Positions 45,107 to 46,305 of a stretch of 47,676 nt of DNA are shown here, in pieces. The DNA lies in the NCBI GenBank assembly GCA_018607135.1, contig JABBCA010000101.1, positions 1 to 47,676 of the forward strand, given 5' to 3'. Made by a program: the position numbers and the translations under genes. The stretch comes from Opitutales bacterium (GTDB lineage: Bacteria; Verrucomicrobiota; Verrucomicrobiia; Opitutales; Coraliomargaritaceae). Under the pieces are notes generated by a model that was not told where the DNA came from, made no database searches, and saw nothing but the letters and a program-made list of their open reading frames with translations. How positions within the stretch are numbered: position 1 is the first letter of the stretch; each line of letters starts with the position of its first letter.

Positions 45107-45518
45107 GTTTTTCGCTCGTTAAGAGAGGCAGCTAAAGTCCCTAGCTTGCTGTGTGTAACTACCCATCAGTCGCTTAGGGTAAGACACGCCTCGTTTCGAA
45201 AGCGAGTTCGCATCGTTTGGGTTTCAACCCTGATTATGCAATAGGATGAGCAAGGTGCTCGGCAACTGACGAAGCTCGGCAGAGCGAAGATGGTGCACCT
45301 CTTGAGGTGTGCCCGAAGGGAAGGCGAAACGGGTGCCCTTTGGGCGGTTTCAACGAACAAGGCCGATGGAGCGTATAAACATACGTGACTGCTGGCCTGA
45401 CAGGTAGCCATGTGCCTTGGTCGCCTAAGGAATTTTTGAGCACCCTCTTGGTGAGCACATTTCTAATGCGATGCATTAGAAATGTGCCTTATATAGAGAA
45501 ACTTACAAATTGAATCGC
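45107..45518. other. Hairpin-rich non-coding region
   Basis: No credible gene is seen, but hairpins follow each other closely: GAGCA/TGCTC (45248-45260); GCTC/GAGC (45274-45285); a 10-bp stem GGTGCACCTC/GAGGTGTGCC (45292-45313); CGTAT/ATACG (45372-45385); and a long arm pair of 15 nt around GAT (45454-45487, one A bulge). Earlier CTCGTTT/AAAGCGAG and GGGTT/AACCC stems lie at 45190-45230. Such density suggests a structured RNA or a repeat family; strand is not known. Confidence 0.45.
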
Positions 45519-45542
45519 GGTTCTTCGCTATTTTTAGTGGAT
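45519..45542 (+). repeat. 24-bp terminal inverted repeat, left copy
   Basis: These 24 bases begin GGTTCTTCGCT and end TTTTTAGTGGAT. They are a perfect reverse complement of 46231-46254 and lie outside the GxxExxY gene on its 5' side. Confidence 0.9.
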
Positions 45543-45705
45543 AACGCGTTCGCTTGCCTTCGAGTTTTTAACTGATGATTTGTCACAACCGCTAGCGCTA
45601 GAGTTGCCCTTCCTCCTTCGTCTTTCAGGCTACGGCGGACGAGTCGGGCGAGTATGGGGAGGAAATGATTGTCCTTGAATCACGAAGCAGGCAGGCAAAG
45701 CGCTT

Positions 45706-46086
45706 ATGGATGAATATACTGAACTCACGGGAACGATTATTGGGGCGGCCATGGAAGTGCACAGCCATTGGGGACCTGGGCTGATTGAAAGTATTTATGA
45801 GAAAAGCCTGGCACATGAGCTTCAACTGCGTGGCGTTAAGGTGCAAAGGCAAGTGAAGCTTCAACTCAAATACAAGGATCTCGAATTGGACGACGATTTC
45901 ACGCTCGACCTCATCGCGGATGGAAAAGTCATCGTTGAGCTGAAAGTCGTGAAAGAACTTGCTCCAATACATCAGGCTCAACTGATGACCTATATGAAAC
46001 TGACAGACTGCAAAATTGGGCCATTAATCAACTTCAATGTCGTCCACCTCAAAGAAGGTATCCGGCGATTGACACTTCCAAATTGA
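45706..46086 (+). CDS. GxxExxY protein
   Basis: A 126-residue protein of the GxxExxY family, named for G25-x-x-E28-x-x-Y31 in the stretch GPGLIESIYEKSL. The centre (about 60-95) with DDDFTLDLIADGKVIVELKVVKEL has the D...ExK order seen in PD-(D/E)XK nucleases, so a nuclease-like fold is likely. Its biological function is unknown. The gene is the only one inside a pair of perfect 24-bp inverted repeats. Confidence 0.85.
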   Translation: MDEYTELTGTIIGAAMEVHSHWGPGLIESIYEKSLAHELQLRGVKVQRQVKLQLKYKDLELDDDFTLDLIADGKVIVELKVVKELAPIHQAQLMTYMKLTDCKIGPLINFNVVHLKEGIRRLTLPN

Positions 46087-46230
46087 GACAAACCTGTCTC
46101 CCTTCTTGTCCGCCGTAGCTCGAAGAGCGTAGGAGGAAACCTCCCCCCTCTAACCCGCGTAGCGGGTGGTTGTGAAACTTAATACGCTATGGCCCGTCTC
46201 TGCAGTCATTGCCATTTTAGTTTTTGATTG

Positions 46231-46254
46231 ATCCACTAAAAATAGCGAAGAACC
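46231..46254 (-). repeat. 24-bp terminal inverted repeat, right copy
   Basis: The exact reverse complement of 45519-45542. It lies 144 bp after the GxxExxY stop codon and about 50 bp before the end of the convergent esterase gene. Confidence 0.9.
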
Positions 46255-46305
46255 TGAATCCTATTGCTCAGAAAGTCCGTTTGCATAGTTCGGGTTAAAA
46301 GAAGA

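Follow-up and report, generated by a model that had tools for sequence, protein, structure and literature searches.

Genes of the GxxExxY family are widespread, their function is unknown, and they are mentioned in passing in the literature consulted. The window analyzed here, a 47,676-nucleotide stretch of an Opitutales genome (GCA_018607135.1, contig JABBCA010000101.1), contains one such gene in a unit at 45519–46254 that is bounded by inverted repeats. This locus poses the question of what kind of element the unit is, what moves it and how the gene is connected to its movement. An earlier note on this DNA had suggested that the gene is carried by a non-autonomous mobile element or, alternatively, by a retron-like or self-folding cassette.

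Results

Architecture of the unit and its target site

The two 24-bp ends at 45519–45542 (forward strand) and 46231–46254 (reverse strand) are exact reverse complements, for which our own arithmetic gives a chance expectation of about 1e-9 in 736 bp. The earlier note had described these perfect ends, pairing arms further inside, a GxxExxY gene, the absence of a transposase and the motif TGAATC beside both ends, and all of these features were found again. The inner arms at 45610–45651 and 46097–46138 comprise 42 nt and are 76% complementary, and the unit additionally contains TCACAACC at 45583–45590 and GGTTGTGA at 46168–46175. On the left, TCACAACCGCTAGCGCTAGAG and the bases following it (45583–45609, forward strand) are common to the close homologues G002:C63 and G004:C127. 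They are followed by a REP-like hairpin sequence, TTCCTCCTTCG..CTACGGCGGACGAGTC (45610–45645, forward strand), which is missing from G002:C63 and from the copy of the element on contig C28 and is an insertion into the left arm. The right arm consists of a REP-like part (GTCCGCCGTAGCTCGAAGAGCGTAGGAGGA, 46097–46138, forward strand), to which related sequences exist in other genomes and a solo copy on C93, and a part that terminates in GGTTGTGA (46139–46175, forward strand). Between the arms, the gene at 45706–46086 (forward strand) encodes an intact protein of 126 amino acids, and no transposase is encoded within 45519–46254.

The unit is located in an intergenic repeat, and its flanks at 45222–45516 and 46255–46299 (both forward strand) are themselves the two parts of an interrupted dispersed repeat with inverted ends of the type TTNAACCC..ATGCAA, starting near TTCAACCCTGATTATGCAA on the left and ending with TTGCATAGTTCGGGTTAAA on the right. 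This outer repeat represents a third dispersed family of approximately 330 bp with many copies in the genome, for example at C93:19314, C13:7296, C26:30425 and C94:55383 of G000; the C87 copy of the element adjoins a related repeat as well. At the left border (45511–45518, forward strand) the target reads TGAATCGC, in which GC separates TGAATC from the unit, and at the right border (46255–46262, forward strand) it reads TGAATCCT. Six of the eight positions match, the left copy deviating in its last two bases. In uninterrupted copies of the outer repeat, on C93, C13, C26, C94, C49, C52 and C77, the junction has the sequence TTGAATCCTATTGCTC or a close variant of it, with a single occurrence of the target TGAATCCT. 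The earlier expectation of empty sites with a single target was thus confirmed, but the duplicated sequence is the 8-bp TGAATCCT and not the 6-bp TGAATC.

Further copies in the genome

Allowing up to two mismatches, the end sequence matched 11 genomic sites (two within the window unit and nine elsewhere), and a reversed control pattern matched none. The sites outside the window belong to copies on C87 (395 bp), C50 (404 bp) and C28 (273 bp), to one copy divided between the contig ends of C102 and C2, and to a truncated end on C91. Four of these copies, with the same ends in different flanks, each have their own exact 8-bp direct repeat: GCTAAAAT on C87, TGTTCTGT on C50, AAAGGATT on C28 and AAAAAAGA on C102/C2. 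An identical stretch of 332 bp, covering three quarters of the gene from its start, is missing from the copies on C87 and C50, which reside in different targets, indicating that a deleted derivative transposed again. Hence the unit at 45519–46254 is a non-autonomous transposable element, as shown by copies in other flanks, 8-bp duplications and empty sites with a single target. It has the properties of a MITE: it is multicopy, has paired ends, lacks a transposase and occurs in varying flanks.

The ends belong to the ISL3 type

When 84,980 genomes were screened for a degenerate version of the ends, 14 stretches were returned. Among them is an insertion sequence of 1273 bp from Phaeodactylibacter xiamenensis, which has closely related ends (3 and 5 mismatches per 24 positions compared to the ends of the window unit), an 8-bp duplication (AATTTTTT) and an open frame of 406 amino acids that matches DDE_Tnp_ISL3 (PF01610, E=2.7e-68), and which contains no GxxExxY gene. 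The end GGCTCTTC also adjoins an ISL3 transposase in G011. In accordance with ISL3 elements, the window unit has terminal inverted repeats of the form GGYTCTTC..., and its family generates 8-bp target duplications (four exact cases, and in the window six of eight positions together with the empty sites). The PF01610 transposase of autonomous ISL3 elements is found neither in the unit nor in the genome, whose draft assembly breaks at such repeats. The two congeners did not yield an ISL3 transposase either.

The encoded protein is a predicted nuclease

The window gene matched PF13366 (PDDEXK_3; E=9.4e-42) and TIGR04256 (GxxExxY; E=8.6e-42) over its full length and above the curated cut-offs. The protein retains the GxxExxY motif and D68, E78 and K80, the residues that we take to be catalytic from the PD-(D/E)XK superfamily. 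Its structure was predicted with a pLDDT of 94.8. The nearest solved structure was the Cas4 protein SSO0001 (Z 9.7, rmsd 4.4 over 102 residues), with many PD-(D/E)XK enzymes close behind in score. Judged by this model, the protein is a predicted PD-(D/E)XK nuclease with a fold nearest to Cas4. Holliday-junction resolvases were considered as nearest relatives and rejected: T7 endonuclease I was the top match in a sequence search with a non-significant E of 0.22 and SSO0001 ranks above Hjc by structure, and therefore we do not claim kinship with resolvases.

Gene and inner arms form a module of their own

Decayed GxxExxY genes lie inside the same ends in Opitutia UBA7441 (L200, L203 and L205, with a short tail in L201), in M30B33 (L199, the locus G019:C1) and in the degenerate C6 copy of the window genome, and the inner arms of all these elements are unlike those of the window unit. 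In total, the majority of elements bounded by such ends contain remnants of the gene, and they represent at least three genera; the only intact gene found is that of the window unit, and no gene lies between the ends of L204 and of the copy on C28. The homologues G002:C63 and G004:C127 possess inner arms of the window type and no ISL3 ends. Since such arms occur without the ends, and other elements with the ends contain different arms, gene and arms constitute a separate module, which is nested in an ISL3-type shell that in turn lies inside the third repeat. The recurrence of remnants across genera makes the gene look like an old component of the element and not a recent hitch-hiker.

GxxExxY genes in general lie between inverted arms

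Most other GxxExxY genes of the window genome are located between inverted repeats as well, with a different sequence at each locus. Using an inverted repeat score of at least 14 between 450-nt flanks as threshold, 82% of 62 loci from the same order had inverted arms, while the controls gave 1.9% (pseudo-cassettes placed nearby) and 7.4% (flanks combined across genomes). Among 65 further loci from the whole phylum the proportion was 88%, compared to 5.4% in the control, and of six plasmid records of other phyla three passed the threshold (two from Bacteroidota, one from Gemmatimonadota). In Sphingomonas parapaucimobilis (L306), a GxxExxY gene is located between fabD and fabG, and its arms are of a shorter form, recognized by eye; these short arms, CACGCGAAG..CTTCGCGTG, overlap the 3' end of the gene.

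A typical arm consists of a T-rich sequence, AAC and three copies of a heptamer (for example CGCAGAT, CGTTAAT, CACGAAA or CACAGAG) at a spacing of 8–11 nt. Within a locus the two arms share their heptamer and, in most cases, its spacing, and heptamer repetition in 82% of the arms exceeds the 95th percentile of shuffled arms. Heptamer similarity was correlated with protein similarity (Mantel r 0.34, reached in 0 of 2000 permutations), a correlation to which common descent of gene and arms could contribute, and between nearest protein neighbors from different genomes the heptamers agree at 5.9 of 7 positions, compared to 4.7 of 7 for all pairs. In the inner arms of the window unit the three-heptamer form is not clear, and therefore the general pattern accounts for the origin of the module and not for its present arms.

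Around ordinary GxxExxY cassettes we detected neither a target duplication nor an insertion boundary; the commonest short flank match, in 9 of 71 cassettes, probably reflects the symmetric TTAA of the arms. In a search for an empty site of a cassette in G084, from the genus Akkermansia, the flanking genes matched different contigs in relatives. In phage records tblastn gave no match to GxxExxY, and in viral contigs, searched with a few peptide patterns only, none was confirmed. Related cassettes of the CGCTTAT type are present in G000 on C18, at the start of C28 and on C33 together with the end of C28; C18 and the start of C28 have a homologous upstream coding sequence in common, and the gene on C33 contains an internal stop. 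Long direct repeats (scores 77 to 246) flank GxxExxY genes at G036:C22, G027:C73, G018:C40 and G026:C16, and at least some of them contain arm-like repeats, as if entire gene-less units had been duplicated on both sides.

Inverted arms as such are not unique to GxxExxY, because genes of PF05635 (23S_rRNA_IVP, a four-helix-bundle family; L273–L302) are also enclosed by them at 80% of 30 loci. The repeat grammar differs between the two families: across the phylum, PF05635 arms are built from tandem units roughly 7 nt long (TCAGCGATCAGTATTCAGC, AGGAGTCAGGAGTC) instead of three heptamers.

Arm pairs without a gene

A generic arm pattern with 10-nt spacing was searched in 115 genomes and matched in 41, while the reversed control matched in none. 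Arms were present in 38 of 52 genomes that encode GxxExxY versus 3 of 63 that do not (Fisher p 5e-15, phylogeny being ignored), amounting to 831 versus 3 arms, and among 32 genomes with PF05635 and without GxxExxY only two contained an arm. In one genus, the single gene-bearing species has 22 arms and nine other species have none, a contrast that only partly meets the objection from phylogeny to the Fisher test. Of 31 cases in which neighboring arms lay within 600 bp of each other, 30 were inward pairs, and the distance between the arms was 12–25 nt (hairpins), 68–170 nt or 374–415 nt, the latter being gene-sized; L183, L187 and L179 are examples of pairs without a gene. G016, G012 and G003, in which no GxxExxY gene was found, contain single CACGAAT arms or gene-less pairs, perhaps left behind after gene loss. 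A literature search that left out most subscription papers and all bioRxiv preprints found no description of a link between GxxExxY genes and arms and nothing relevant on the typical arm sequences.

Discussion

The window unit is very probably a non-autonomous, MITE-like ISL3-type element that carries a GxxExxY nuclease gene and is moved by an ISL3 transposase acting in trans, the latter because the window genome lacks such a transposase. It shares the GGYTCTTC terminal repeats, the 8-bp duplication and the multicopy short derivatives with ISL3 insertion sequences and MITEs, and differs from the ISL3 family in lacking the transposase and in containing a PD-(D/E)XK gene with inverted arms of its own. 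We infer that an ISL3-type transposase mobilized the whole element family: supplied in trans, it would recognize the 24-bp ends, mobilize the element and reinsert it elsewhere with an 8-bp target duplication.

Considering that most elements bounded by such ends contain the gene or what is left of it, and that inverted arms accompany GxxExxY genes at other loci, the nuclease itself might be suspected to move the element. We regard this as very improbable, since ends and duplication fit an ISL3 insertion sequence in which GxxExxY is absent, ordinary GxxExxY cassettes have neither these ends nor a target duplication, and the gene is missing between the ends of L204 and of the C28 copy. It is also rather unlikely that a MITE captured the gene in a single event without further meaning; the finding of one intact gene among decayed copies would fit such an event, whereas remnants with different inner arms in end-bearing elements of other genera argue against it.

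A functional hairpin RNA or a retron-like cassette, as considered in the earlier note, is hardly credible. As a giant hairpin, the unit is indeed predicted to fold better than shuffled sequences (z −3.2), but inverted repeats produce such a fold, which is for this reason no evidence of function; compensatory evidence is absent, and copies with large internal deletions have transposed. The retron-like proposal finds no support: retrons comprise a reverse transcriptase with msr/msd, and all open reading frames of the unit are too short to encode such an enzyme, only the 126-aa gene having a family match.

Two known systems resemble parts of what we observed. In 23S rRNA intervening sequences, a small open reading frame (S23/IVP) is enclosed by inverted repeats and mobility is suspected; these sequences reside in rRNA genes and are excised by RNase III (PMC4990558). 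The window unit likewise has a small enclosed frame, but its gene belongs to PF13366 and not PF05635, and it lies in an intergenic repeat; dispersed PF05635 genes have arms of 7-nt phase. In RAYT/REPIN systems, a gene lies between inverted repeats and gene-less inverted doublets are dispersed in the same genomes (PMC3116915). GxxExxY arms in general, though not those of the window, also occur as dispersed inverted doublets tied to the presence of the gene. The enzyme differs from RAYT in being a PD-(D/E)XK protein instead of an HUH tyrosine transposase, and the arms are composed of three phased heptamers.

Because the pattern of gene-less arms resembles RAYT/REPIN, we propose that the nuclease acts on or mobilizes its arms. 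GxxExxY genes and three-heptamer arms could then form a widespread two-part mobile repeat system, in which the nuclease would recognize its own heptamer and spread both the cassette and gene-less pairs, much as RAYT/REPIN does with an unrelated enzyme; we consider the chances of this proposal to be about even.

The window unit itself is a non-autonomous ISL3-type element and was correctly recognized as non-autonomous and mobile by the earlier note. In contrast to most GxxExxY genes, which lie directly between heptamer arms, its gene resides inside such an element and provides a concrete case of a GxxExxY gene within a transposable element. Of greater interest is the general connection of GxxExxY nucleases with their arms, which goes beyond this element. 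It gives the whole family a testable role, as the arm heptamer tracks the protein and the multiplication of arms is almost confined to genomes that possess the gene. Should the nuclease act on its arms, such action would constitute a new mechanism of repeat spreading and would explain a class of intergenic repeats in several phyla.
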